Positions 9,024 through 27,125 of a DNA stretch of 27,870 nt are shown one piece after another (positions within the stretch are counted from its first letter, which is position 1; every line of letters starts with the position of its first letter). The position numbers and the translations under genes are program-made. The notes beneath the pieces were generated by a model, which made no database searches, had not been told where the DNA came from, and saw only the letters and a program-made list of their open reading frames with translations. Source of the DNA: Flavobacterium psychrophilum. Its GTDB lineage: Bacteria > Bacteroidota > Bacteroidia > Flavobacteriales > Flavobacteriaceae. The DNA is taken from NCBI GenBank assembly GCA_945878515.1, contig CAMCTL010000027.1:1-27870 (forward strand), in the 5' to 3' direction.

Positions 9024-10694
9024 TTAAAATGGAACTGTATCATCTGTTAGACCAATATTAAAATAAAAATTACTTTCTTCTTGTGAAATTAAATTTGAAC
9101 GTATTTGCAAAACTTTTTCTATGTTTCCGTTTTCAAATTCATCACGCATTTTATCATTTATAAAAAATTCCGAATATTTACCTCTAAAATCATTATTTAA
9201 AAGAAAGGAAAGGTCTTTAACTTTTTTATTTTTAAAAACAAAAATGTTTTCCGATAATTTATTAAGAGAAACAACCATATTTGAACTCTCACCATACTTA
9301 TAAAGTAAATTATTTTCAACATCAGAAATAAGCCTCATAATTTTATAGTCTTCAACATAGTCAGAGTCAATTTGTTTAAAATTATTAGAATAATTTAACA
9401 TAAATAAAATATGACTTTTTGATCTTACTGCTCCTAAATTAACTTTTTTAGGCAATTCAGGTACATTAAATGCTAAATTAGGTTTGTCTTTAAAAATAGT
9501 TTGGTTACTTAATTGTTTTGAAAAATTCTGAAAAATTCTGAAAGCTTCTTTTCTTTTACTTGGACTATAAATTGTGAAATAATTTGCAAATGATGTTATC
9601 CAAAACCATTTTTTTAATTCATGTTTTTGTTCGATAGTTGGTTCGGAATTATTATTAAAGAATTCAACTAAAAAAATAAATTGCATATTAGCTGGAAGTA
9701 ATTTATTATCTACAATCAACAACTCCTCAAAAAGAAATTTTACAACTAATTCAATACTTGCCATTGTTTTTTCAACTTGAGATTTGAAGTTTGGTTTTTT
9801 TGATAAAAGTATAATGTCCGTTTTTTTATTATCTAAATACAAATCTCCAAACGAACTTTGAATACTTCTAAATATTAACTCTCTAACTGCAATTTCTTTT
9901 GGTCGTTTATCAGTAAAATTAAAAGTCTCTAACTTCTCTAAAGTTTCATCAATCTTATCACCTAACCTAAAATCAGATGAATATGTTTTAGCTGATAATA
10001 TCCAATCAGGAGTTATTGGTTTTCCTTCTTTATTTAATAAGGTGAAGATATCAATTGCTTCATCTAATGTACCTCCAGCAATTTCGATTACTGGCATTTG
10101 ATACCTTTCAAAAGTTGTCACAATTTTTTTTAATCTTGAAGTATATAAATTTGAAATTTCTGGTTCATAATCATTTTGAATAGTTTGCGATATAGTTAAA
10201 AAACCTTCAAAATCTAACAAAATATATACTGGAACTATATAACTTTCTCTTTCTTTATCCTTTCCTCTGTAGTTTTCAAATTCTTGATCTTTTAAGTTAT
10301 AAAAAATATTAAAAGTTGAGTTATATAGGTCTTTATTTTTAGTAAAATTATGAATATCTTGTGGATTTGTTAAAGCACCAAATAAAGATGACATTCTTTG
10401 ATAACCATCTAAAACGTATTTACATTTTATTTTCTCAAAAGTATTTATAAATTCATCCTTAATAAAATAGGGCCCTACTTGCTTGGCAACTTTAAATTGT
10501 GTTTCAGGTTTCCAAAAAAGAAATGATCCAATTGGATAATTTTTTTTAATACTCTTCAGTAAATTAATTACATTTTCTAAATCCCAAATAAAATCTCTCT
10601 GAAATTCCGGAATTTGTATAATACCAGCATTTATTTCTTTTAAATAAATGTCAAAATTATTATTAGATGGCTGTAAACTAATTAATGAACTCAT
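9024..10694 (-). CDS. DUF262 protein (ParB/Srx-like fold), third gene of the inserted cassette
   Basis: The 556-residue protein carries the DUF262 hallmarks: IQIPEFQRDFIWDLENVINL near residues 27-45, PIGSFLFWK near 54-62, and LDGYQRMSSLFGAL with the DGQQR-type motif as DGYQR at 96-100. It continues with FTLLNKEGKPITPDWILSA, also typical of the family. DUF262 is the N-terminal domain of GmrS/BrxU-type modified-DNA restriction proteins, where the DGQQR motif couples nucleotide hydrolysis to nuclease activity. No C-terminal HNH (DUF1524) motif is visible, so if it has a nuclease partner it should be another protein. Its ATG overlaps the stop codon of the upstream gene (ATGA, 10691-10694), which indicates translational coupling. 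The gene is notably AT-rich compared with parC. A role in phage defence is inferred from context. Confidence 0.85.
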   Translation of the reverse strand: MSSLISLQPSNNNFDIYLKEINAGIIQIPEFQRDFIWDLENVINLLKSIKKNYPIGSFLFWKPETQFKVAKQVGPYFIKDEFINTFEKIKCKYVLDGYQRMSSLFGALTNPQDIHNFTKNKDLYNSTFNIFYNLKDQEFENYRGKDKERESYIVPVYILLDFEGFLTISQTIQNDYEPEISNLYTSRLKKIVTTFERYQMPVIEIAGGTLDEAIDIFTLLNKEGKPITPDWILSAKTYSSDFRLGDKIDETLEKLETFNFTDKRPKEIAVRELIFRSIQSSFGDLYLDNKKTDIILLSKKPNFKSQVEKTMASIELVVKFLFEELLIVDNKLLPANMQFIFLVEFFNNNSEPTIEQKHELKKWFWITSFANYFTIYSPSKRKEAFRIFQNFSKQLSNQTIFKDKPNLAFNVPELPKKVNLGAVRSKSHILFMLNYSNNFKQIDSDYVEDYKIMRLISDVENNLLYKYGESSNMVVSLNKLSENIFVFKNKKVKDLSFLLNNDFRGKYSEFFINDKMRDEFENGNIEKVLQIRSNLISQEESNFYFNIGLTDDTVPF

Positions 10695-11758
10695 AATAAA
10701 TTTTTAATTTGAGTGAAAATTGTTTCTAATTCATTGCTTCCACATCTATTTTTTAATGAAACTCTATTAACTAAGGGTGAGTGAATAAAAAATTTAGGGA
10801 ATGAATTTTTATATCTTCTTTCGTCATGTTGAATACCCGCAGTTTCATTATCTCTATAATTAATCCCTTTTTCTAAAATAGAATAATTTCCGTCAGAAAC
10901 ATTAAATAAGTTATTTATTTCTGTGAAATCATTATTTTGAAAAGTGCTTTTACTTGGCTGTTTTTCATATCTCAGAAAATCTTTTTGTTCATCTGACAAA
11001 TACTGATAAGCGTTTATCCAATTAATGCAATCTTTATCGTCTGTTCTACTCGACAGAGATTTATTTTCTCTTATCTGAAATATCAATTCGTTAGGCATAT
11101 AATTTTCAATTGATCTTTTCTCTAGGATATGCCATTCGATATTTTTTTGTTTAAGAAAATCAGTCAAAGTGTTGTATTGTTTTGGCTCACTTAAATAATT
11201 TTTTTCGCTATCTAAAATCACTAAACCTCTATAATATTTATGCGTTTCGGTAATATGTTTCGCTGCTAAAATATTGAAAGTGTCCAATTTACCTTTAATT
11301 TGATTTTTTGCTCCTGAACCACCAGCATTAGCAAAATCTATCCAACGATTTTGAATACAAGTAATTACAAACTTATCATCTTCATCAAAATTATATATTA
11401 TTGATTTTATAAAATTTGAATCATTGAAGCTATTTTCAAGAACTATCCATAGAGGTTCTCTTAATAATTCTAATGCTTCCTCAAGATTATAATTATTAAC
11501 ATTTACATCGCTAGAAATAAAATATTTGATTTCAATTTGATTCTCATAAAAAGACGATTTTACTGAATCCTGAATTAATTCTTGATCAATACTATCAAGT
11601 TTATTATATAAATCTGTTTCTTTAATACTTTGAAAATCTAAAAATAATTTTGCTTTAGAAAACATAGAACCTTTAGTTTCAAAAATAATATTCAAAAGAA
11701 ATTGTATATCTTTCAAATCATTGGATTTGAATATATCTTCTCTAATTTCTATCCACAT
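10691..11758 (-). CDS. TOPRIM/DUF4435-like protein, second gene of the inserted cassette
   Basis: The 355-residue protein has no single obvious name, but acidic motifs appear in the order expected of OLD-type or DUF4435 TOPRIM domains. They are IVLENSFNDSNFI (Glu108, Asp112), then GGSGAKNQ near 146-153, then LVILDSEK (Asp183, Glu185), then EKRSIENYMP (213-222), which resembles the 'rEIENYL' motif of DUF4435. In OLD nucleases and in PARIS (AriB) this kind of domain works with an ABC-type ATPase; here the two are separate neighbouring genes. It starts 3 nt after the ATPase stop codon and overlaps DUF262 by 4 nt, so the three genes are one translational unit. The TOPRIM assignment is by motif only. 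Confidence 0.6.
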   Translation of the reverse strand: MWIEIREDIFKSNDLKDIQFLLNIIFETKGSMFSKAKLFLDFQSIKETDLYNKLDSIDQELIQDSVKSSFYENQIEIKYFISSDVNVNNYNLEEALELLREPLWIVLENSFNDSNFIKSIIYNFDEDDKFVITCIQNRWIDFANAGGSGAKNQIKGKLDTFNILAAKHITETHKYYRGLVILDSEKNYLSEPKQYNTLTDFLKQKNIEWHILEKRSIENYMPNELIFQIRENKSLSSRTDDKDCINWINAYQYLSDEQKDFLRYEKQPSKSTFQNNDFTEINNLFNVSDGNYSILEKGINYRDNETAGIQHDERRYKNSFPKFFIHSPLVNRVSLKNRCGSNELETIFTQIKNLL

Positions 11759-11761
11759 AAA

Positions 11762-12958
11762 TTAATTTTTTGTATTTTTCATTGCAAGAATTTCATCTAA
11801 TGATTCACTAAAAATTCCTTTTGGCCAATTTTCAACATTACCGTCAGACTTTACATTTACTTTTTCTAAAGTACTTTCATTCAATGTATGATTGTATTTA
11901 ACAAAATATATGTTAATCTCATTATTAGTAAAATAATCAAACTTTTTCTGTGCAATTAGTCTCCTTAATCTTAAAATAAAATTTTCGGAATGTGTTTCAA
12001 TTAAATATCTTTTATTTTTATCCTCCAAAGATTCCGCAAATCTTTCTGCTAAATCGCCGTGAGCTGAAGGATGAAGATGTAATTCTGGCTCTTCAATTAT
12101 TGTTAAAGAAGGTTTTTCTTCAACAATAAATGACTTTGTGATTAATGGCAATGTTTGACTTATTCCTTGTCCAACATTTTCTAAATTAGTTTTAAATAAT
12201 GTAGGTTGTTCCCTTATTAACTCAAAATAAAACTTACTTCTTGTTGTATCATTATCAATATTAATGCCCCAACCTTCAAAAGCAGTTTTGTACCAATCAC
12301 TGACATTCTTCAAAAGTTTCCCTTCTGAATACAATAAATCATTAATTAAAATTTCATAAGCAAATTTACCCTTGACACCTATTTTTTTTATATTTCTTTC
12401 TTTAGGTAAATCTTCATCAATTTCATTCGGTTGTATTCGATAAGAACTAATATAATCAAAATCAAATTTAAAATCATTTAAATTTGGCAAATCAAGATTT
12501 GAATTATTAATTTTTGCTAATTCAAAACCAGAAAAAGAACAGTCTAACAATTTATAATTATTTGAATTCAAATAATACTTTTTACTTAACAAATCATATT
12601 TTAATATAAACTCATCATTATAATTCCAATAGCTTATATATAATGCATTTTTACCAAATTGAACATCTACTGATAAGAATAAACCATTATCATTATTAAT
12701 AATAAATTTAAAAAGTCCTGTAGTTTCTTTTCCATAATTTAAATCAGAATAATTAGTTCCTAAAGTAACTCCCTCGTTTTCCCAACTAAATGGCGATTCT
12801 TTTTTTCCATTTAAACTTTCTGAAATTAAAGTAGGCAACTTAGCCAAAGCACTTTTACCTGAACTATTTTTTCCTATTAAAATAGTAATTGGCTTTAGTT
12901 CAAGTTCCTGCTCTTCATTAAAAATCTTAAAATTCTTAAACGATATTTTATTAATCAT
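11762..12958 (-). CDS. ABC/OLD-type ATPase with DUF3696-like tail, first gene of the inserted cassette
   Basis: The 398-residue ATPase begins with the AAA_15/SMC-like FKNFKIFNEEQELEL strand. Walker A is GKNSSGKS at 29-36, a signature-like segment is NVGQGISQTLPLI, Walker B is LTIIEEPELHLHP, and the H-loop is RYLIETHSENFILRLRR. Near the C-terminus, DGNVENWPKGIF matches the DUF3696 'WPxGFF' motif. Such ATPases pair with nuclease or DUF262 genes in defence islands. The gene starts 46 nt after the parE stop, in the same direction. A sampled 60-base line of this gene (12421-12480) has 12 G+C, against 29 in a sampled line of parC (8401-8460), consistent with acquisition from another source. Confidence 0.88.
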   Translation of the reverse strand: MINKISFKNFKIFNEEQELELKPITILIGKNSSGKSALAKLPTLISESLNGKKESPFSWENEGVTLGTNYSDLNYGKETTGLFKFIINNDNGLFLSVDVQFGKNALYISYWNYNDEFILKYDLLSKKYYLNSNNYKLLDCSFSGFELAKINNSNLDLPNLNDFKFDFDYISSYRIQPNEIDEDLPKERNIKKIGVKGKFAYEILINDLLYSEGKLLKNVSDWYKTAFEGWGINIDNDTTRSKFYFELIREQPTLFKTNLENVGQGISQTLPLITKSFIVEEKPSLTIIEEPELHLHPSAHGDLAERFAESLEDKNKRYLIETHSENFILRLRRLIAQKKFDYFTNNEINIYFVKYNHTLNESTLEKVNVKSDGNVENWPKGIFSESLDEILAMKNTKN

Positions 12959-15056: not shown

Positions 15057-16154
15057 TTATTTAACAAAAATCTCCTTCAACTGACCAATGATGTTTCCTC
15101 CTCCAGAAATGGTGATTTCTCCAATCTTATCGGCGATTTTCTCTACATATTCCATTTCTTTTAATTTCCACAACATTTCGTTTTCTTCCATCAATTTGGC
15201 AGTGTTCAACAAACTTCTGGTTGAAGCGGTTTCTTCTCGTCTCATGATGCTGTTGGCTTGTGCCTTTTTTTCGGCTACCAAAACTTGATTCATGATTTCT
15301 TTCATATCGCCTGGTAAAATAACATCTCGAATTCCCGCATCGGAAACCGCCAAACCTAAATCGGTGATTTTGGTTTTAACTTCTTCCAAAATAGCCGAAG
15401 CAATTGTGTCTTTTTTACTCAATAATTCATCCAATGTCAAGTTTCCCACAAAAGCTCTCAAAGCCAATTGCATCAAAACGTACAGCTGTTTTTCGAAATC
15501 TTTGTTGGCTACCAAGGCTTTTAAAATATCCGTAACCTGGTATCTCACGTAGAAATTGATTCTCAAGCCTGCTTTGTCTTTAGTCAATAATTCTTGACCT
15601 GATATTTCCAATTGTTGTTGTCTTATATCTACTGTTTTGACTTCGATTGTAATGGCGTTATTCCAAAAATAGTGTGTTCCTGCAGCCAACTCTTTGACAT
15701 AAGTTCCATTCACGAACAACAAGGCTTTGTCATTGCTTGACACGATAAACTTCCTCACGAAAGCCTTCAATTTAACCGTTTCGAACAAAAACATTGGAAT
15801 TTGTTCTGTGATTTCCACTTTAGATAAATCTATTCTGGAGAAATACATATTGGTTACGCCTTTCCAAAAAGCATAGGTTCCTGCTGTCAATACTTCCTTG
15901 AAGTTTCCGTTTACAAATTGTAAAACAATTTCGTTATCGTCCACTTCAATTACTTCTAACATTGAAGCCAATACTTCATTTTGAATCAAGATGTTGAATT
16001 CATAAGGCGATTGGAAAGCGACTGTTTTCTCGAAAACCATCATTTGTTTGTTACCAAAAATCCATTGTGAACCTTCTTTTATCACCTTTACTAATTTTCT
16101 GTTTTCGAATACCAAACCTACTTGGTAGGCATCGATTGTAATTCTTTGTATCAT
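15057..16154 (-). CDS. SPFH/band-7 (slipin-like) protein of the RNA-repair island
   Basis: The 365-residue SPFH/band-7 protein contains the slipin core (VTEQIPMFLFETVKLKAFV through GLRINFYVRYQVTDILKALV and VSDAGIRDVILPGDMKEIMN) and a charged helical tail. Unlike membrane stomatins it has no N-terminal transmembrane segment: it begins MIQRITIDAYQVGLVFEN. SPFH proteins form large rings or cages. Surveys of bacterial RNA-repair systems describe SPFH/band-7 proteins as likely scaffolds next to RtcB and RlaP genes together with a tRNA-like non-coding RNA. That is the situation here: a tRNA-like locus lies about 480 nt upstream on the same strand, and rtcB and two rlaP genes lie further along. The scaffold role is inferred from this context. 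Confidence 0.85.
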   Translation of the reverse strand: MIQRITIDAYQVGLVFENRKLVKVIKEGSQWIFGNKQMMVFEKTVAFQSPYEFNILIQNEVLASMLEVIEVDDNEIVLQFVNGNFKEVLTAGTYAFWKGVTNMYFSRIDLSKVEITEQIPMFLFETVKLKAFVRKFIVSSNDKALLFVNGTYVKELAAGTHYFWNNAITIEVKTVDIRQQQLEISGQELLTKDKAGLRINFYVRYQVTDILKALVANKDFEKQLYVLMQLALRAFVGNLTLDELLSKKDTIASAILEEVKTKITDLGLAVSDAGIRDVILPGDMKEIMNQVLVAEKKAQANSIMRREETASTRSLLNTAKLMEENEMLWKLKEMEYVEKIADKIGEITISGGGNIIGQLKEIFVK

Positions 16155-16541: not shown

Positions 16542-16567
16542 TCAATTCCTGCTGGTTCTTGTTGAGT

Positions 16568-16599
16568 GTACGTTTTGGATTTTGAAATCCAAATAGTAC
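16568..16599 (-). other. Long hairpin downstream of the tRNA-like modules
   Basis: On the minus strand, outer GTAC/GTAC arms enclose TTTGGATTT and AAATCCAAA with a 2-nt centre, a near-continuous 32-nt hairpin. It follows the tRNA-like modules on the same strand and could be the 3' domain of that RNA. It is not followed by a T-run, so it is not a normal terminator. Confidence 0.4.
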
Positions 16600-16640
16600 T
16601 GACAAAGACCAAACAGTTTTCTTTGTGGTACATCTTTTTA

Positions 16641-16733
16641 AGAGTGATGTGCTCTGGAATACAGATTTTAAGTCTGTATGGCGACAAGCCGCTGTCAAAA
16701 CCAAATCAAATTGGTTGCAGGATTCGAACCTGC
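16641..16733 (-). ncRNA. tRNA-like module B, permuted, with Leu(UAA)-type anticodon arm
   Basis: Read on the minus strand, the tRNA parts occur in permuted order. First comes the T-arm GCAGG TTCGAAT CCTGC (16733-16717), preceded by C48 (16734). Next is an acceptor stem AACCAA / TTGGTT (16716-16711 with 16704-16699) closed by a 6-nt loop TTTGAT. After TT for positions 8-9 comes a D-arm GACA GCGGCT TGTC (16696-16683, short loop containing GG). An anticodon arm follows: ATACAGA, loop CTTAAAA, TCTGTAT (16679-16659), which is the loop of tRNA-Leu(UAA). Last is a hairpin AGAG CACATCA CTCT (16655-16641) where a class II variable arm would be. All domains of a class II tRNA are present, with the break between variable arm and T-arm. 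No CCA end exists, so aminoacylation is not expected. The fold was made by eye. Confidence 0.55.
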
Positions 16734-16739
16734 GATTTT

Positions 16740-16807
16740 TCTATTGTTCTAACCTACTGAACTATTCCGATTACTCGAAAGTGGGAATCGAACCCACGAC
16801 CCATAGA
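16740..16807 (-). ncRNA. tRNA-like module A with acceptor stem capped by a GUAA tetraloop
   Basis: Minus-strand order is as follows. TCTAT (16807-16803) pairs with ATAGA (16744-16740) as a 5-bp anticodon-type stem. Then come GGGTC as positions 44-48, T-arm GTGGG TTCGATT CCCAC (16797-16781), and acceptor TTTCGA (16780-16775) paired with TCGGAA (16770-16765) across loop GTAA, a GNRA tetraloop. TA at positions 8-9, D-arm GTTC AGTAGGTTA GAAC (16762-16746) and A26 complete it. The residues of tRNA tertiary pairs are present: U8-A14, G15-C48, G18G19 with TTC, T54-A58, A26-G44. This is a complete tRNA elbow without a free 3' end, and it opens through the anticodon stem. Bacterial Y RNAs carry tRNA-mimic modules, and band-7/RtcB loci are reported to encode tRNA-like RNAs. 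The six-frame translations here (RIRTCD, GIEPTTHRV) are the usual false ORFs antisense to tRNA T-arms. Confidence 0.7.
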
Positions 16808-16811
16808 GTGT

Positions 16812-16881
16812 GACCGTTTTTTGGGAAACAGCCTAAAACCTCCAAATCAAGTTGCATAGAAAAACCTAATACGCTTTCGCG
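16812..16881 (-). other. 5' helices upstream of tRNA-like module A
   Basis: On the minus strand three further hairpins can be drawn: GCGTA/TATGC (16874-16854), AACTT GATTTGG AGGTT (16853-16837), and an 8-bp GGCTGTTT / AAACGGTC stem with a 6-nt loop (16833-16812, two G-T pairs). CGCGAAA at 16881-16875 could also pair, with one mismatch, to TTTCGAG at 16780-16774 as an alternative open acceptor stem for module A. They suggest that the transcript begins above 16881. The exact ends are not visible. Confidence 0.35.
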
Positions 16882-16990
16882 AAAAGTTCCCTACAATGGT
16901 GCTATACAGAAACACGCAACAAGACTTGTTTGATATTTTCAGTCTATAAAAGAACTTGTTTTATTTCTTGAGCAAATATTCAAAAGGGAG

Positions 16991-20308: not shown

Positions 20309-21637
20309 ATGACCGATTTACAATATAAATACCAAGGAATTTCAACCTTTAGTAAAACCAAAGGAATAAATAATTTGGTTATGGCACACCAAACAGAAAT
20401 TGAAGAAATCAATAACATTCCTTGTTTTTTTTGGGGAAGTTTGAACGATCCTTATGTTACTGCCAAATGTTGGAGCACGATTGCCAAAGTCGTTCGGTCT
20501 AGTTTTGGACCTATTCCTCCAAGTCTGCGAGATCCTATTGTTTCTGCTGGAGCAGAAAGATTACGATTTGAAGGTTTCTCTTCGTGCAATGGGGTTTATG
20601 TTCGTTTGGATATGAAACCAGAATCTATCGATGGCGAATTTATTGCCAACGGAACTACTAATGTGGATTTTAATGACCCAATGCTAAATGCATTAAATGC
20701 AATTCAAAAAAACGAAAAAGTAACTTTGGCTGTTGGACAAAAAGAAATGCAAGTCATTACAAGCAAATCTAAAGTGGTTGAAAAGAAAGTAACCTTACCA
20801 CCAAGATGGATTAAGGGTTTAACTAGCGTACAATTGTATTTAGCAGATATGGATATGAAGTTTGAACTCAATAAAATTCAAACTATTCAACTATTTCAAA
20901 GTTTACCCAAAGGCAATGTTAAAGGCGAATTTTACATTACCAAACGCGCAGGGAAATTTATGTTTTCGACACTTGCAACTCAAGACAGTGTTCGAATTGG
21001 AGGCATTCATAGGTTGCGATTATTAGAAGGAGTTTTAGCCATTGTCGATAAAATATATTTTCACGAATCTTCAGACAAAGAGACTTGCGCTGTAGTTTGC
21101 GAATTTGGAAAAATGCAATTACTAATGGCTTTTTCTCCTGATGCGTACCGCGGTTTTTCGGGCGAAGGAAAAGCATTAGAAAATATGTCAGAAAATGTTC
21201 CAATAGAATGGGTTTACGGGCTGAATAGTTTATTGAAATCTAACGAAACATTCAACCCAACGATGCTCTCTATTGAAAATGATATTGATTTTGGCACAAT
21301 GGAAAATCTTACTGCAAGTTTATCTTCAATGGGATTGTTAGGTTATGATGTTTCAGCGCGCACCCATTTTTACAGAAGATTGCCATTTAAAACGGAACGG
21401 ATTTTAAGTCTCAACCCAAGATTAAAAAATGCCAAAAAATTAGTTGACAATGAAGACATTGAAATTGTTGTTCGACAAGCCAATTATGTTGAAGCAAACG
21501 TAAAAGGTACTGGAGTTACTCACAAAGTAATAATCGATGGCGAAAACCAACGCTGCACCTGCGATTGGTTTACGGCTTACCAAGGCAAAAGAGGAATTTG
21601 CAAGCATATTTTAGGGGTGAAAATGATGGTGGGTTAA
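20309..21637 (+). CDS. SWIM zinc-finger protein, third gene of the WGR-SWIM operon
   Basis: The 442-residue protein ends in a SWIM zinc finger: Cys416, Cys418, Cys431 and His433 in CTCDWFTAYQGKRGICKH, matching the CxCx(n)CxH pattern, with the upstream HKVIIDG strand typical of the fold. SWIM fingers bind DNA or proteins. The N-terminal 380 residues show no enzyme motif; they resemble YehQ-type proteins, which pair with MoxR-VWA or MolR partners in other bacteria. The last 68 nt overlap tail-to-tail with the opposite-strand RlaP gene (21570-21637). Since the zinc-binding Cys431 and His433 codons lie in the overlap, this frame is clearly coding there. The start at 20309 is 5 nt after the upstream stop. 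Confidence 0.85.
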   Translation: MTDLQYKYQGISTFSKTKGINNLVMAHQTEIEEINNIPCFFWGSLNDPYVTAKCWSTIAKVVRSSFGPIPPSLRDPIVSAGAERLRFEGFSSCNGVYVRLDMKPESIDGEFIANGTTNVDFNDPMLNALNAIQKNEKVTLAVGQKEMQVITSKSKVVEKKVTLPPRWIKGLTSVQLYLADMDMKFELNKIQTIQLFQSLPKGNVKGEFYITKRAGKFMFSTLATQDSVRIGGIHRLRLLEGVLAIVDKIYFHESSDKETCAVVCEFGKMQLLMAFSPDAYRGFSGEGKALENMSENVPIEWVYGLNSLLKSNETFNPTMLSIENDIDFGTMENLTASLSSMGLLGYDVSARTHFYRRLPFKTERILSLNPRLKNAKKLVDNEDIEIVVRQANYVEANVKGTGVTHKVIIDGENQRCTCDWFTAYQGKRGICKHILGVKMMVG

Positions 21638-22694
21638 CCATATACAATTGTTCCCGAATTTCAATCAAAACCTTTGTCATTTTCTGCGCATCAGGTATTT
21701 CAGGTAAATTACAGCTTGAATACAAACTTTCAATTGAGGCAAGTAAAACATCAGCCATTTCGAGTAAAACATCATATTCCATATTACCAGCTTTTATAGA
21801 TAATAACTCCTCTCGATTCGGCACTCGGATGCTTAATTTTCCCGTGGCGAGAATTTGCTCTGCGGTTTGCAATAATCGGATGGTGTGCATCATATTTTTG
21901 CTGTCGTAATTCTTGCCATGTTGCTGGTTGGTATTATAGCGTTCTTCATTACGTTTCTCCATCCAATCCCAATATTCCTTGTATTCTTTGCAATATTGTG
22001 AATAGCCGTCTTGATTGCACAACAAATAAGCCACTTCTTTTTCTCCTTTCGGGATTGACGACAAGGACACTTCATTGGAATTTTCGTTTTTAATGATGCC
22101 ACGATAACCCAAAGTGTTGTTTTGGTCATAAAACAGTGCATACATCCCTTTAGAATTAGGCATATTGATTAAACCGCAACGTTCCTGAACGAAAGCTTTC
22201 GCTGCCAACCATTGCGAAAGTGTAACCGAATCATAGCCTTGCAAAACGTAGCAAAAATCCAACAGGGTTTTCTTTTGCTTTTCCATAGGGTTAACGATTT
22301 TCTTTTTCAAACCTCTCGCTTTTTTGATTTGTGTCATAGCATAGCCCGCAAAACTGTCTTTACATAATTTAGACAAGAAATCTTCTAATCTCAAACGCTC
22401 CATCAACGGATGTTGGTACAAAATACAATCCTCTGGCGATGCCAAAATCTCCAGAATATTTGGGTTATTTTTAAGCAACAATTCTACAAAACGACCTATT
22501 TCATAATACACCTCATCATTGGTTTCATTACTTATCTGCGGAAGATACTGCAACCCATAAAACTGCTCTTTAGGCAAATAGTACACGCCTTTAATGTCCG
22601 TATCCGATGTGGGCGTATCTAACCCAAAAGATTTACTGCCCGAAATAACTTCGAAAAGGATGAGGTTTTGAGATTTTAAATCTTGGATGGTCAT
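21570..22694 (-). CDS. RlaP-type nucleotidyltransferase (second copy)
   Basis: The 374-residue protein is a DNA-polymerase-beta-like nucleotidyltransferase of the RlaP/YcgL family (PF10127). Residues 18-37 contain GSKSFGLDTPTSDTDIKGVY, the family G-S ... S-D-x-D active site, and YNTNQQHGKNYDSKNMMHTI is another conserved segment. RlaP proteins occur beside RNA ligases and are proposed to add nucleotides to damaged RNA ends. Its ATG overlaps the stop of the kinase-like gene (ATGA, 22691-22694), so the two are coupled. About the last 22 codons lie antisense to the SWIM gene; the family-like sequence ends near IREQLY, so the tail may be an extension after loss of an earlier stop. Confidence 0.88.
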   Translation of the reverse strand: MTIQDLKSQNLILFEVISGSKSFGLDTPTSDTDIKGVYYLPKEQFYGLQYLPQISNETNDEVYYEIGRFVELLLKNNPNILEILASPEDCILYQHPLMERLRLEDFLSKLCKDSFAGYAMTQIKKARGLKKKIVNPMEKQKKTLLDFCYVLQGYDSVTLSQWLAAKAFVQERCGLINMPNSKGMYALFYDQNNTLGYRGIIKNENSNEVSLSSIPKGEKEVAYLLCNQDGYSQYCKEYKEYWDWMEKRNEERYNTNQQHGKNYDSKNMMHTIRLLQTAEQILATGKLSIRVPNREELLSIKAGNMEYDVLLEMADVLLASIESLYSSCNLPEIPDAQKMTKVLIEIREQLYMVNPPSFSPLKYACKFLFCLGKP

Positions 22695-23317
22695 TTGTAA
22701 AATTGTTCAGTGAGGTAAAAAACGGTGTCGATGAAATACAAATTACCGTCAAGAGTCAGCACATTTTCATCATGTAAATCTTCTAGAATGATTCCTAAAT
22801 CTGGATTAAAATAATCGTTGTTTCTTGTATTTTGAAAGCCATTTTCATTAAGAAATTTTTTGACAACTTCTATTTCTGTTAATGTATCAAATTTTATAAA
22901 ATCCTGTTCAACGACAGCATACAAAATTGCTTCGGATTCATAAAACCCAACTAATTTATAAGCTGTATCTGGAAAAAAGAAATTATTCAATAATAAGTTA
23001 TTGAAATAATCTTCCCAAGAAGTATAATAAATGGAATCATTGAGTTTAAAAACGGCAAACTCATCCGGATGTAGATACACCTTTTGTTCAGCACCACTAG
23101 AAACAAAAGAACTGAGATCAATATTTACTTTCCAAAAATTATTTTGGTTGCAAAATTGTCTTATGCTCGTTGCTTCTTCACTCTTGATTTGCTTGCTGTC
23201 TTTAGCCTCGCAACCTGAGTTCTTGCTTCTTCTAAGGAAACTGGCGACCGCTTGGATAGCATCTCCATGCCTAACTTGGCTCTTTCCTGAAATGATATTT
23301 TGTAGTTCATGTTTCAT
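22691..23317 (-). CDS. Polyvalent-kinase-like protein coupled to RlaP
   Basis: The 208-residue protein fits the minimal protein-kinase-like fold of the polyvalent-protein kinase family (PF18762 type). GAEQKVY (75-81) and Lys91 fit the nucleotide-binding lobe, VVEQDF (135-140) the hinge, DLHDENVL (180-187) the catalytic loop with Asp183 and Asn185, and FIDTVF (195-200) the metal-binding Asp197. The first 60 residues (GDAIQAVASFLRRSKNSGCE) resemble the N-terminal part of related hypothetical proteins. The substrate is unknown; in an RNA-repair setting it could phosphorylate an RNA end or a protein, but nothing in the sequence decides this. It has its own likely -7 box (23331-23338) and its stop overlaps the RlaP start by 4 nt, so it is the first gene of a two-gene unit. 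Confidence 0.65.
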   Translation of the reverse strand: MKHELQNIISGKSQVRHGDAIQAVASFLRRSKNSGCEAKDSKQIKSEEATSIRQFCNQNNFWKVNIDLSSFVSSGAEQKVYLHPDEFAVFKLNDSIYYTSWEDYFNNLLLNNFFFPDTAYKLVGFYESEAILYAVVEQDFIKFDTLTEIEVVKKFLNENGFQNTRNNDYFNPDLGIILEDLHDENVLTLDGNLYFIDTVFYLTEQFYK

Positions 23318-23418: not shown

Positions 23419-24189
23419 TCAGATGGTGTTTTTAATATTATATTTAAATATCTCATTCTTAAAAACCCCATCCAATTCCACCGCCATCTTCTTCCCACTA
23501 CCCAAACCACTCGCATTCTCCTGATTAAACTTCACCGTTTCCAACAAAAAATCAGTTATTAAGGATTCTTTTGGGTGCAAATAACTTTCGTCTTGGTTGG
23601 CTTTTATCTCCATTAACTCCACAATTTTATCTTTAACATTCTTGGGTGCGATAGGTAACAAATCCATAAAATCCACTGGCGGAAAACTGTTGTTTTCTAT
23701 TATCCAACGGCCAGCTAATGCGGTACGCAAGGCGTAGAAATAACTTTTCAGTTTCACTTCTTCGGCTTCACATACGTCCATAAAATTCTTGGTCGTTCCT
23801 AAATAATGGTGCAAACAGGCAATCGGCGAAAAACAATCTTTTGCTAATGTTCGCATTTGGGCTACAAAAGCTTCATCTTCAAAATACACCACAGGCGAAT
23901 ACAACCACTCTAACAAAGGTGCATTGGATTTGGCTAATAGTTTTAAAGCTTTCCGTAAATCCCAACCGGAACCGTCCAAATCGTCTTCGGTCATGAACTC
24001 GATTACATCGGGTTGCTCCCAAAGCGAAAGGTAATAGTCTAAATCGTGTTTGTAGATAAAACGAATGTCATAATCGCTGTCTGGAGAAGCAAATCCCCAG
24101 GCACGACTGCCTGATTCGCAAGCAAAAAGGATTTCTACCTGCTTGCTCTTCTCTATTTCTTTTAGTTTTTCTAGTATTTTCTTTTCCAT
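23419..24189 (-). CDS. RlaP-type nucleotidyltransferase (first copy)
   Basis: The 256-residue RlaP/YcgL-family nucleotidyltransferase has its active site in ACESGSRAWGFASPDSDYD (residues 24-42), with Ser-Asp-x-Asp metal ligands, followed by WDLRKALKLLAKSNAPLLEW, the family's second conserved helix. It is about 120 residues shorter than the RlaP at 21570-22694, and the two sequences differ strongly, so they are distinct subfamilies rather than a recent duplication. The neighbours are RtcB upstream and the kinase-like gene downstream, all on the minus strand. RtcB joins 2',3'-cyclic phosphate and 5'-OH ends, and an RlaP could rebuild lost nucleotides before ligation; that order of events is inference. 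A terminator-like hairpin (24208-24258) separates it from rtcB. Confidence 0.9.
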   Translation of the reverse strand: MEKKILEKLKEIEKSKQVEILFACESGSRAWGFASPDSDYDIRFIYKHDLDYYLSLWEQPDVIEFMTEDDLDGSGWDLRKALKLLAKSNAPLLEWLYSPVVYFEDEAFVAQMRTLAKDCFSPIACLHHYLGTTKNFMDVCEAEEVKLKSYFYALRTALAGRWIIENNSFPPVDFMDLLPIAPKNVKDKIVELMEIKANQDESYLHPKESLITDFLLETVKFNQENASGLGSGKKMAVELDGVFKNEIFKYNIKNTI

Positions 24190-24381: not shown

Positions 24382-25803
24382 TTAATCCTCTCTACTTCCA
24401 TCATCCGCCATTCTTACCATTTTTGGGGTAAACTTCGCCACGACATCCACCAAATCTTGTTGGGCTGCCATCACTTGGTTGATGTCTTTGTAGGCCATTG
24501 GGGCTTCGTCTAGTCCTGCGCCAATTAAGGTTACACCGTGGTCTTTCAAAATGCTTTGCATTTCGTTTTGAGAAATGGTTTTTATGGCTTGGGTTCGGCT
24601 CATTTGTCGTCCCGCTCCGTGTGAAGCGGAGTTTATGGCGTTTTCCTCGCCTTTTCCTCTTACCAAAAAACCAGGTGCCGTCATACTTCCTGGAATAATT
24701 CCCATCACGCCTTTTCCAGCTGGTGTGGCTCCTTTTCTGTGCACGATGACTTCCTCACCGTTCCAAATTTCTTTCCAAGCAAAATTGTGGTGGTTTTCTA
24801 CTTTGGCCAAAACCGTTGCGCCCAATGCTTTTTGCATTTTAATGTGTATAATCTCGTGACAAGCCGAAGCGTAGTCGCCCGCCAAGTTCATTGCTATCCA
24901 ATATTCTTGTCCCAATTGCGAATTCATATCCAAATAGGCCAAGTTTCTGGCGGCATCGGGTAATTTGCAAACGTCTTTGGCTATTTTGGTATAATGTCCC
25001 GCCACGGTAGCGCCAAAACCTCTAGAACCGGAATGGGTCAACAAAGCAACGTATTTCCCTTTTGGGATATTCAAAAGGACATCGTCTTGGGCAAATTCCA
25101 TAATTCCGAATTCCACAAAGTGATTGCCTCCGCCGGAGGAACCCAATTGTGACCAAGCTTTGTCTTTTAAATTCTTGACCAAAGCATTGTCGTTGAAACT
25201 TTGGTTTTCTAAAACCGCATGATCCGATTTGTATTGTCCGTGAAAACCGTGACCCGCTCCAAACTTGGTGTGCGCCACCAATTCCCTTTTGAATTTGGCT
25301 TCGTTCTCATAATAAAATCCTTCTGGAATATCGTAAACAGATAAAGCCATTCGGCACCCAATATCAACACCCACGCCATAGGGAATGATGGCATTTTTGG
25401 TTGCCAAAACTCCACCAATGGGTAAGCCATAGCCTTGATGCGCATCGGGCATTAAAGCTCCTGCGACAGTTATGGGCAATTGCATTGCGACTTCCATTTG
25501 TTTTCTCGCACCTTCGTCAATATGTTCTAAACCATAAGCGGAATAGGCCTTTGGGTTGGGGTTCAAAGCGATGAAATCTTCTGGTTTTTCATTGGCTTTT
25601 TCGATCAGTGCCAAGGCTAAGGAACTGAAAATAGTATCTTCTCTATAGTTTTCTGGGGCTTCTAATACGTTTTTGAAATGGGTTAGCATTTCGTCTCGTT
25701 TGAAACCGTTTCTTTTTCTGTTTATTTTTAATGCGATACCTATGATTTCGCCTTGAGGCAATCCTAATTCCATTAATTCAAATCCGTTGATTTTTGTTTC
25801 CAT
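24382..25803 (-). CDS. rtcB: RtcB-type RNA ligase (3'-phosphate/5'-OH)
   Basis: The 473-residue RtcB seals RNA with 2',3'-cyclic phosphate or 3'-phosphate and 5'-OH ends using GTP and Mn2+. Conserved motifs in order are GVGVDIGCRMALSVYD (metal Asp and Cys), GSSGGGNHFVEFG (Asn-His), THSGSRGFGATV, KVENHHNFAWKE, GATPAGKGVMGIIPGSM and ASHGAGRQMSR, whose His is the guanylylated residue. It is full length, with the longer N-terminal region of this branch. No rtcA cyclase or archease gene is adjacent; instead the neighbours are two rlaP genes, a kinase-like gene and a divergent WYL regulator, which marks a stress or conflict RNA-repair system rather than tRNA splicing. A candidate operator (25845-25863) lies 42-60 nt upstream of the ATG. 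Confidence 0.96.
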   Translation of the reverse strand: METKINGFELMELGLPQGEIIGIALKINRKRNGFKRDEMLTHFKNVLEAPENYREDTIFSSLALALIEKANEKPEDFIALNPNPKAYSAYGLEHIDEGARKQMEVAMQLPITVAGALMPDAHQGYGLPIGGVLATKNAIIPYGVGVDIGCRMALSVYDIPEGFYYENEAKFKRELVAHTKFGAGHGFHGQYKSDHAVLENQSFNDNALVKNLKDKAWSQLGSSGGGNHFVEFGIMEFAQDDVLLNIPKGKYVALLTHSGSRGFGATVAGHYTKIAKDVCKLPDAARNLAYLDMNSQLGQEYWIAMNLAGDYASACHEIIHIKMQKALGATVLAKVENHHNFAWKEIWNGEEVIVHRKGATPAGKGVMGIIPGSMTAPGFLVRGKGEENAINSASHGAGRQMSRTQAIKTISQNEMQSILKDHGVTLIGAGLDEAPMAYKDINQVMAAQQDLVDVVAKFTPKMVRMADDGSRED

Positions 25804-26105: not shown

Positions 26106-27125
26106 ATGTCATTGAATAAAAATGCCCTTATTCGCTATAAAACCATCGATAAATGTTTGCAAAACCAATATAGAACTTGGACTTTGGAAGATTTGATTGC
26201 CGTGGTAAGCGATGCTTTGTATGAATATGAAGGAAAAGAAAATCCGGTCAGTAAACGCACGATACAATCCGATATTCAAATGATGCGGAGCGAAAAACTG
26301 GGCTATAATGCGCCGATTGTGGTCTATGACAAGAAATTTTACAAATATGAAGTCGAAGATTTTACGATTACCGATATTCCGCTGACGGAAACCGATATGA
26401 ATGTTCTGACTGAGACGGTTGCGATGTTGAAGCAGTTTAAGGATTTTTCGTTGTTTAGCGATGTTTCGGATATTTTGCAGCGGTTGGAGGATAAAATCTA
26501 TGCCGAAAAGTCCAATTCTAAACCCGTTATTCACTTAGATAAAAATGAAAACCTAAAAGGACTGCACTTCTTGGACGAAATTTATCAGGCGATTATTAAA
26601 AAAGTTGTTTTGGTTATAACTTATAAATCATTCAACTCTAGGGAAAAAAAGCAGTTTCCTTTTCATCCCTTCATATTAAAAGAATTCAATAATCGTTGGT
26701 TTTTGATTGGGAGAATTAAAAAAAGTCAGCCGATTCGAAATTTGGCTTTAGACCGAATTATCCGAATCGATTATGATTTCAATTTACCCCATTTAGAGGA
26801 TGATTTTAACGCCGATGAGTATTATAAAAATGTAGTTGGAGTCACCGTGAATAGCGGTTTACAACCCAGAAAAATAGAATTGTGGATTGATGCCATAAAT
26901 GCCCCTTATGTCATCACAAAACCACTTCATAACACCCAACGTTTGATAAAAACCAATGAAGATGGCAGTATCATTATTCATTTATTACTTATAGAAAATT
27001 ATGAATTGGACCGTCTGCTTTTGGGTTTTGGCAACGGACTAGAAGTATTACAACCAGAAAGATTGCGCAACCGAATGCGAAGAATATTGCAAGCAGGATT
27101 AGAACGGTATACTGTTGATTTGTGA
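26106..27125 (+). CDS. WYL-domain transcriptional regulator, divergent from rtcB
   Basis: The 339-residue regulator has an N-terminal winged HTH-like region (about residues 8-80, with NPVSKRTIQSDIQMMRSE as the likely recognition helix). A WYL domain covers about residues 155-225 (VLVITYKSFNSREKKQF, then FNNRWFLIGR containing the family signature at 196-202, then IRNLALDRI). A C-terminal WCX-like extension ends in PERLRNRMRRILQAGLERY. WYL proteins sense nucleic-acid ligands and regulate defence and DNA-damage genes. Its position, divergent from rtcB across a 302-bp region that holds a dyad operator, suggests it regulates the RNA-repair genes. That is inference; DNA binding by this protein cannot be seen here. 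The start ATG at 26106 is preceded by an A-rich leader. Confidence 0.9.
   Translation: MSLNKNALIRYKTIDKCLQNQYRTWTLEDLIAVVSDALYEYEGKENPVSKRTIQSDIQMMRSEKLGYNAPIVVYDKKFYKYEVEDFTITDIPLTETDMNVLTETVAMLKQFKDFSLFSDVSDILQRLEDKIYAEKSNSKPVIHLDKNENLKGLHFLDEIYQAIIKKVVLVITYKSFNSREKKQFPFHPFILKEFNNRWFLIGRIKKSQPIRNLALDRIIRIDYDFNLPHLEDDFNADEYYKNVVGVTVNSGLQPRKIELWIDAINAPYVITKPLHNTQRLIKTNEDGSIIIHLLLIENYELDRLLLGFGNGLEVLQPERLRNRMRRILQAGLERYTVDL

Follow-up and report, generated by a model that had tools for sequence, protein, structure and literature searches.

A conserved RNA with two permuted, capped tRNA-like modules and a pseudoknot upstream of a Band-7 gene in a Flavobacterium psychrophilum RNA-repair locus

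The stretch of DNA analyzed here (the window, 27,870 nucleotides (nt)) comprises positions 1 to 27,870 of the forward strand of contig CAMCTL010000027.1 from Flavobacterium psychrophilum (assembly GCA_945878515.1). It carries a slipin-like Band-7/SPFH gene on the minus strand, separated from a divergent WGR gene (17190, plus strand) by a gap of 1,035 nt in which no open reading frame of at least 80 amino acids is found. An RNA-repair locus had been proposed in an earlier, sequence-only reading of this DNA, and genes for an RtcB-family RNA ligase and an RlaP nucleotidyltransferase are indeed present in the window. Encoded in this gap, ahead of the Band-7 gene and in the same orientation, is a conserved structured RNA that comprises two permuted, capped tRNA-like modules and a pseudoknot. 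Along the chain, T-arm 1, a capped acceptor and D-arm 1 are followed by T-arm 2, a second capped acceptor, D-arm 2, an anticodon-type arm, and the pseudoknot. The sequence-only reading had described module 1 correctly but had taken it for a single module; the second capped module, the anticodon arm, the pseudoknot, a conserved 5′ domain, and the match to the YrlA family of Y RNAs all go beyond it.

Module 1 is a permuted tRNA elbow opened at the anticodon stem. On the minus strand, a closing stem formed by TCTAT (16807-16803) and ATAGA (16744-16740) encloses the variable-loop segment GGGTC (16802-16798), T-arm 1, and an acceptor whose first strand, TTTCGA (16780-16775), runs through a GTAA cap (16774-16771) into the second, TCGGAA (16770-16765). 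The segment from U8 to A26 (16764-16745) contains A14, G15, G18, G19, A21 and A26. Every piece of the elbow named in the sequence-only reading lies where it had been placed, and sequence and covariation agree on the two features it had stressed, the capped acceptor and the opening through the anticodon stem. An anticodon arm is absent from module 1 in the window and in most related loci. An ordinary tRNA gene was rejected as an explanation: ARAGORN calls none in the window, and the acceptor of an ordinary tRNA would form 2.03 of 5 pairs, compared with 4.99 of 5 in the permuted reading (n = 68).

Relatives of the Band-7 protein reach 93% identity, and the named ones among the 120 listed are mostly from Flavobacterium. 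The loci compared (L001-L080) are the best 80 of 278 obtained when GTDB contigs were scanned by alignment. All 79 loci with enough upstream DNA carry one or two T-arms of the element ahead of the Band-7 gene and on its strand (L056, with 70 nt, stands outside this count). Among the window and 78 loci, 76 sequences have two T-arms and three have one, and a capped acceptor follows 153 of 155 mimic T-arms; the leader pattern used for these counts missed L045, which has both modules. By comparison, of 101 T-arms that lie upstream but do not belong to the RNA (31 loci), 21 are followed by a capped acceptor, and one is found in 20.3% of 15,500 shuffled flanks. The window and its relatives contain 37 distinct capped acceptor stems in module 1, where the caps are mostly tetraloops (GTAA 21, GCAA 19, GAAA 4).

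Compensatory changes in homologous loci, on which the sequence-only reading had staked the element, were found when the window was aligned with 40 loci, a set from which eight loci with a class-II-like module 1, three single-T-arm loci, L056, and near-identical sequences had been dropped. Double changes occur in 18 of 27 pairs, and 98.5% of 1,101 cells are paired (shuffled mean, 84.2%). The covariation score is 0.485 versus 0.186, none of 500 shuffles matches any of the five observed values, and sliding the pairing partners by one to three columns leaves at most 49.8% of cells paired. In the closing stem of module 1, 99.0% of cells are paired, with double changes in two of five pairs. The tertiary pair 15-48 covaries as well: it is G-C in 34 sequences and A-T in six, with no mixed pair and one gap (Fisher 2.6e-7, uncorrected for kinship). 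Across the 69 of 80 sequences showing the D-arm consensus, it is G-C in 58, A-T in 10, and G-T in one.

In module 2, a search for a hairpin of 5 base pairs (bp) and 7 nt, made in 80 sequences without any loop constraint, recovered loops resembling true anticodon loops, with C32 in 65, U33 in 69, A37 in 69, and A38 in 70 of 73. The anticodon itself takes 14 values among the 69 sequences with U33 and 15 among all 73; CAA (23), GAA (19), GTA (7), and TTT (5) are among them, and TAA occurs in the window alone. The second helix of the pseudoknot scores at least 5 in 61 of 73 sequences versus 10.4% of shuffled tails, with 29 distinct helices, when parsing is anchored on the first helix (sequences picked by regular expression, five distant loci by eye, L080 excluded because the expression had matched a wrong site). 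This anchored parse replaced a generic pseudoknot finder, which was noisy and placed only 15 of 80 sequences above the 95th percentile of shuffles. In eight loci (L044, L055, L061, L066, L071, L073, L075, and L076), module 1 gives way, as judged by eye, to a class-II-like module that has an anticodon arm of its own; ARAGORN calls it Leu in L055, L061, and L071 and gives another or no isotype in the remaining ones tested. The replacement suggests an exchange of modules.

Table 1. Features of the RNA and of the genes discussed, by position in the window.
Feature	Position	Strand	Basis
Band-7/SPFH (slipin-like) gene, downstream of the RNA, same strand	15057..16154	-	Pfam PF01145 and synteny
Probable 3′ structured region	16551..16619	-	Sequence reading, partly RNAalifold; weak, 3′ end not defined
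H-type pseudoknot AGAG-CACATCA-CTCT-TAAAAA-GATGT	16630..16655	-	Second helix conserved
Anticodon-type arm ACAGA-CTTAAAA-TCTGT	16661..16677	-	5-bp/7-nt hairpin in 73/80 sequences
D-arm 2	16679..16698	-	Read from sequence; pairs not formally counted
Acceptor stem 2 AACCAA-TTTGAT-TTGGTT, capped	16699..16716	-	42 distinct stems (window and relatives), compensatory
T-arm 2, start of module 2	16717..16733	-	5/5 pairs in 66/68 sequences
Module 1, permuted tRNA elbow opened at the anticodon stem	16740..16807	-	Rfam match, alignment, covariation
U8, D-arm 1, A26	16745..16764	-	100% of cells paired; double changes in 2/4 pairs; 15-48 covariation
Acceptor stem 1, capped by GTAA	16765..16780	-	99.5% of cells paired; double changes in 5/5 pairs
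T-arm 1	16781..16797	-	100% of cells paired; double changes in 3/5 pairs
Hairpin before module 1	16812..16834	-	96.0% of cells paired; double changes in 6/8 pairs
5′ stem-loop domain (predicted)	16854..16894	-	RNAalifold, 29 sequences; changes on both arms by eye, no formal pair count
Conserved 5′ block AATATCAAAC...TTTCTGTATAGCACCATTG	16889..16937	-	Strong conservation by eye
Second, partial RlaP-like protein	21570..22694	-	PF10127, E 2.9e-23
RlaP nucleotidyltransferase of RNA-repair loci	23419..24189	-	PF10127, E 1.3e-77
RtcB-family RNA ligase	24382..25803	-	PF01139, E 8.7e-82
WYL/WCX regulator	26106..27125	+	PF13280 and PF25583

A covariance model built for the element (R1) was applied to an even sample of 395 genomes across the phylum, of which 142 match at E <= 1e-3 (weak hits among these not being counted as the RNA) and 13 at 69 bits or more. 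In 13 of 13 strong hits, a Band-7 match lies within the fetched 3 kb. At least three of them (G008, G036, and G040) come from genomes of Band-7 loci already collected, others may as well, and two of these three (as L018 and L068) belonged to the training set of R1; the argument is carried by the distant strong hits G266, G128, G351, G347, G317, G230, G339, G293, G430, and G359, whose Band-7 proteins are 54-64% identical. Twenty of the 395 genomes are of the Band-7 type, defined by a Band-7 protein match at E <= 1e-60. In 18 of these, an R1 match on the Band-7 strand lies 325-601 nt upstream of the gene; of the remaining two, L162 has a T-arm with a 6-bp capped stem, and L164 a T-arm with a 4-bp GAAA-capped stem that falls below the criterion, and at least one cap by criterion is present in 19 of the 20.

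Of the repair neighbors anticipated in the sequence-only reading, SPFH/Band-7 has proved a constant partner, whereas RtcB has not. RtcB is found in 36 of 41 carrier genomes tested and in 18 of the 20 Band-7-type genomes versus 173 of 395 overall, a comparison uncorrected for kinship and for which no significance is claimed. Within the fetched flank (up to 10 kb), RtcB occurs in 25 of 80 loci, in 25 of 25 cases on the Band-7 strand and in six within 1 kb. Ro60, detected as TROVE (PF05731), was seen in five of the 41 carriers, in one of the 20 Band-7-type genomes, and in 27 of 395 overall; the sequence-only reading had described the mimic here as one without a Ro60 gene, and mostly its carriers lack that gene. 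No TROVE match exists among the 19 window proteins scanned. The proximity of Ro60 was assessed in 25 self-chosen genomes. Among 14 of the Band-7 type, Ro60 is present in one (G098); all 11 others, whose R1 hits are weak, have Ro60 no farther than 2 kb from the hit, and seven of them also have RtcB in the fetched region. In this phylum, then, the capped elbow appears to occur in two contexts, either as YrlA together with Ro60 or as the window RNA together with Band-7. This split is not strict, as G098 has both, and is not statistically shown given the low frequency of Ro60. Among 20 weak-hit regions fetched, five (L118, L122, L131, L133, and L134) contain ordinary tRNA genes and no capped T-arm, and a cap by criterion was not found in L120, L126, and L132, three regions near Ro60 or RtcB.

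Rfam YrlA (RF02553) matches 16723-16820, and with it module 1, at 41.1 bits (E 1.9e-7 for the 1,035-nt gap), below its gathering score of 69. This sub-threshold match accords with the Y-RNA-type mimic recognized in the sequence-only reading. The Rfam tRNA family matches 16709-16771 at 31 bits, covering D-arm 1 and T-arm 2; the two matches overlap because the chain runs from T-arm 1 through the capped acceptor and D-arm 1 to T-arm 2. A tRNA-Sec match and other weak Rfam matches in the gap were set aside as chance or as echoes of the T-arms. The cap itself is real but no novelty, since the Rfam YrlA consensus also has a capped acceptor, which makes the cap a known Y-RNA trait. The window RNA shares with YrlA the permuted T-arm, the capped acceptor, and the D-arm opening through a closing stem, as well as its occurrence in RNA-repair loci. 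It differs in its tandem modules, the second bearing an anticodon-type arm, in its pseudoknot, and in its constant Band-7 neighbor, and most genomes tested lack Ro60 (36 of 41 carriers and 19 of 20 of the Band-7 type). In L115 (8850-9560), tandem YrlA-type RNAs precede an RtcB gene; three capped modules were recognized by script and two more by eye, and two YrlA copies exceed the Rfam threshold (73.2 and 73 bits). Like the window RNA, tmRNA is a large RNA with a tRNA-like domain and a pseudoknot. It has free, charged acceptor ends, whereas both acceptors are sealed here, and no tmRNA family is among the 12 Rfam matches in the gap. In 2016, Burroughs and Aravind (NAR 44:8525) reportedly described SPFH/Band-7 RNA-repair modules with a novel tRNA-like molecule. 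That non-coding RNA, reportedly the cognate partner of Band-7 in such systems, is very likely the same as the window RNA. The kind of RNA is therefore already known; the capped tandem design, the variation of the anticodon, the pseudoknot, the tRNA-gene arrays described below, and the contrast with Ro60 were not found in the titles and abstract starts searched, which miss most subscription papers; none of these mentions a capped tandem mimic beside Band-7.

In most relatives of the locus, tRNA genes precede the RNA: 55 of 75 loci have them in the 4 kb before it (at least two genes in 50), and 241 of 241 such genes are co-oriented; none lie within 4 kb downstream of Band-7 in 74 loci. The window, in which there is no complete tRNA gene, has no such array. 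The array isotypes are mainly Asp, Pro(UGG), Leu(UAG), Asn, Tyr, Arg, His, and Phe, then Lys and Ser; none of the 241 was assigned to Gly, Val, or Thr, and seven have no isotype assignment. Of these, the tRNAs for Asn, Asp, His, and Tyr are targeted by colicin E5, those for Arg by colicin D, and those for Lys by PrrC. Pro, Leu, and Phe are not on this list. In an eLife paper (PMC10264068), the three proteins are named as nucleases and tRNA-Lys(ttt) is given for PrrC. ARAGORN gave only 23 tRNAs outside the array in one genome (G039); of the six array isotypes there (L075), Asp, His, Pro(TGG), Tyr, and Arg(ACG) were also seen outside the array, and Lys was not.

Conservation of the 5′ block was judged by eye in 35 sequences (the window and 34 of 79 loci), without a formal count; its exact pattern has no match in viral_contigs, a search that a diverged phage copy would escape. 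A simple scan for promoters and terminators is at chance level in the window, and no ends of the RNA are therefore claimed. The partial RlaP-like gene, beside the full RlaP and RtcB genes, overlaps by 4 nt with a Kinase-PolyVal gene (22691-23317, minus strand). Between 17190 and 21637 on the plus strand, WGR-DUF6493, DUF7824/DUF7825, and SWIM proteins are encoded, for which PADLOC gives SWIM_XIII (E 1.9e-67) and, weakly, WGR_XIII (E 7.9e-6), which are names of retron type XIII effectors. Despite these matches, no reverse transcriptase was found among the 19 window proteins scanned with Pfam. Three genes at 9024-12958 (minus strand), flanked by topoisomerase subunit A and B genes, form a cassette that matches A, B, and C of the PADLOC candidate defense system PDC-M55.

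The function favored here, tentatively and at a little below an even chance, is that of a bait and docking RNA held by Band-7; it would be the equivalent of YrlA at a locus lacking Ro60. In the sequence-only reading, a capped mimic of this sort had been envisaged as a cofactor or decoy of repair enzymes. Proteins of the SPFH family assemble into membrane-bound oligomers, and the Band-7 protein would hold the RNA as Ro60 holds Y RNA. To tRNA-binding enzymes, the sealed elbows would resemble tRNA; since an RNA with sealed ends can neither be charged nor serve in translation, its tRNA shape would be selected for by other tRNA-binding enzymes. The loop keeps U33 and A37 but varies the anticodon, which points to enzymes reading anticodon loops, and the gene content of the locus to tRNA cutting and repair. 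The changeable anticodon arm (anticodon UAA in the window) could be a bait for anticodon nucleases, and the RNA may draw off or flag tRNA-cutting enzymes and may bring damaged tRNAs together with the repair enzymes RtcB and RlaP. Upstream arrays, where present, would replace lost isoacceptors. A related role has been suggested for YrlA, whose tRNA-like domain may competitively inhibit an anticodon nuclease, according to Hughes et al. 2020 (PMC7790460).

Several observations weigh against the proposed structure and function. Folded alone, the window sequence has z = -2.1, three of 200 shuffles folding equally well, and its minimum free energy (MFE) and centroid structures pair D-arm 1 with T-arm 2 (16717-16764) and lack D-arm 1, T-arm 2, and the closing stem. 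This alternative was not adopted as the true fold. Its 5-bp helix is feasible in three of 68 sequences only, whereas in the drawn fold T-arm 2 forms five of five pairs in 66 of 68 and D-arm 1 four of four in 68 of 68; its second, 4-bp helix is feasible in 68 of 68 because both strands belong to conserved tRNA motifs. In MFE structures of single sequences (window included), T-arm 1 is present in 61 of 77 and T-arm 2 in 63 of 77. The drawn fold accordingly rests on comparison rather than on energy. Three of the 79 sequences have a single T-arm, seven of 80 lack the anticodon-type hairpin by criterion, and a few of the 73 hairpins (with loops such as ACCATCA) are probably other hairpins. Module 1, mostly without an anticodon arm, fits docking better than bait. 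RtcB was not found in five of 41 carrier genomes and in two of 20 Band-7-type genomes, and its enrichment in the latter (18 of 20) is uncorrected for kinship. The scarcity of Ro60 amounts to no significant exclusion, about 1.4 of 20 being expected from 27 of 395. In Salmonella, moreover, YrlA fragments were undetected when tRNAs were cut, as stated by Hughes et al. 2020 (PMC7790460), so that a mimic need not be a substrate.

The bait and docking function is ranked above a cis-acting leader, in which the RNA would be the 5′ part of the Band-7 mRNA and tRNA-binding or tRNA-cutting enzymes acting on the mimics would switch Band-7 expression, the effect of the modules being confined to this transcript. 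Such a leader, rather unlikely on balance, would explain why the RNA precedes Band-7 in the same orientation in all 79 loci with upstream DNA, the distance from T-arm 1 to the start of the Band-7 match being 402-796 nt, and it is consistent with the lack of a terminator-like site between RNA and Band-7 on the minus strand of the window in a simple scan. However, the distance from RNA to gene varies freely, two tRNA-like modules with further domains exceed the needs of a switch, and the related YrlA acts in trans. Improbable, in turn, is an ordinary YrlA Y RNA with Ro60, or PNPase alone, as partner and Band-7 adjacent by chance. The Rfam match to module 1, the true above-threshold arrays in the phylum (L115), and the proximity of Ro60 in all 11 tested weak-hit genomes outside the Band-7 type speak for it; the sub-threshold score of the window, the rarity of Ro60 among carriers, the Y-RNA-like lower stem that is read in L115 and not seen around module 1, and the constancy of Band-7 as neighbor speak against it. 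A damage-sensing fuse, conjectured from the architecture of the chain, is considered an improbable variant. Both acceptors are sealed and each module would be threaded through one chain, such that cleavage of the module 2 anticodon loop would, after opening of its 5-bp stem, split the transcript, parting the 5′ mimics from the pseudoknot and, if co-transcribed, from the Band-7 mRNA; RtcB would reseal it, and changes in the anticodon arm from species to species would retune the specificity toward a nuclease. If true, the fuse would be an RNA-based immune sensor with its specificity written in a replaceable anticodon loop.

Two explanations invoke tRNA genes proper. Circularly permuted tRNA genes, cut, ligated by RtcB, and opened at the acceptor, give working tRNAs in some algae and archaea, and the RNA shares with them the order of 3′ half before 5′ half, a loop across the acceptor, and the 15-48 contact; intervening sequences as short as 1 nt have been described in an archaeon (PMC3978253), and an RtcB-family ligase is encoded in the locus. 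This origin is nevertheless very improbable. Module 1 mostly lacks an anticodon arm, and the acceptors mostly have 5-6 bp rather than 7 (59 of 78 in module 1 and 60 of 75 in module 2, at least 7 bp being reached in 19 and 15); in the window, module 2 does have an anticodon arm, but its acceptor is 6 bp long. Module 1 caps, mostly tetraloops, are unlike removal sites, and RtcB was not found in some carriers, as given above. The second explanation, that the modules are relics of tRNA genes that decayed at the border of an array of such genes, might be suggested by their tRNA architecture and by the tRNA genes within 4 kb upstream in most loci. Decay, however, yields neither compensatory changes nor a covarying tertiary pair, and a conserved pseudoknot and synteny in distant genomes are not its products either; this reading is already refuted by covariation.

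As a bait and docking RNA or otherwise, the element ties together a Y-RNA-type mimic, a Band-7 scaffold, genes for an RNA ligase and nucleotidyltransferases, and arrays of spare tRNA genes. It offers a testable reason why tRNA-like RNAs occur in RNA-repair loci, namely to meet anticodon nucleases, and with the covariation model and coordinates at hand, tests of expression, partners, and bait function are straightforward. Since the capped-elbow module occurs without Ro60, this module, rather than the Ro60 tether, may be the ancient core of bacterial Y-RNA biology.
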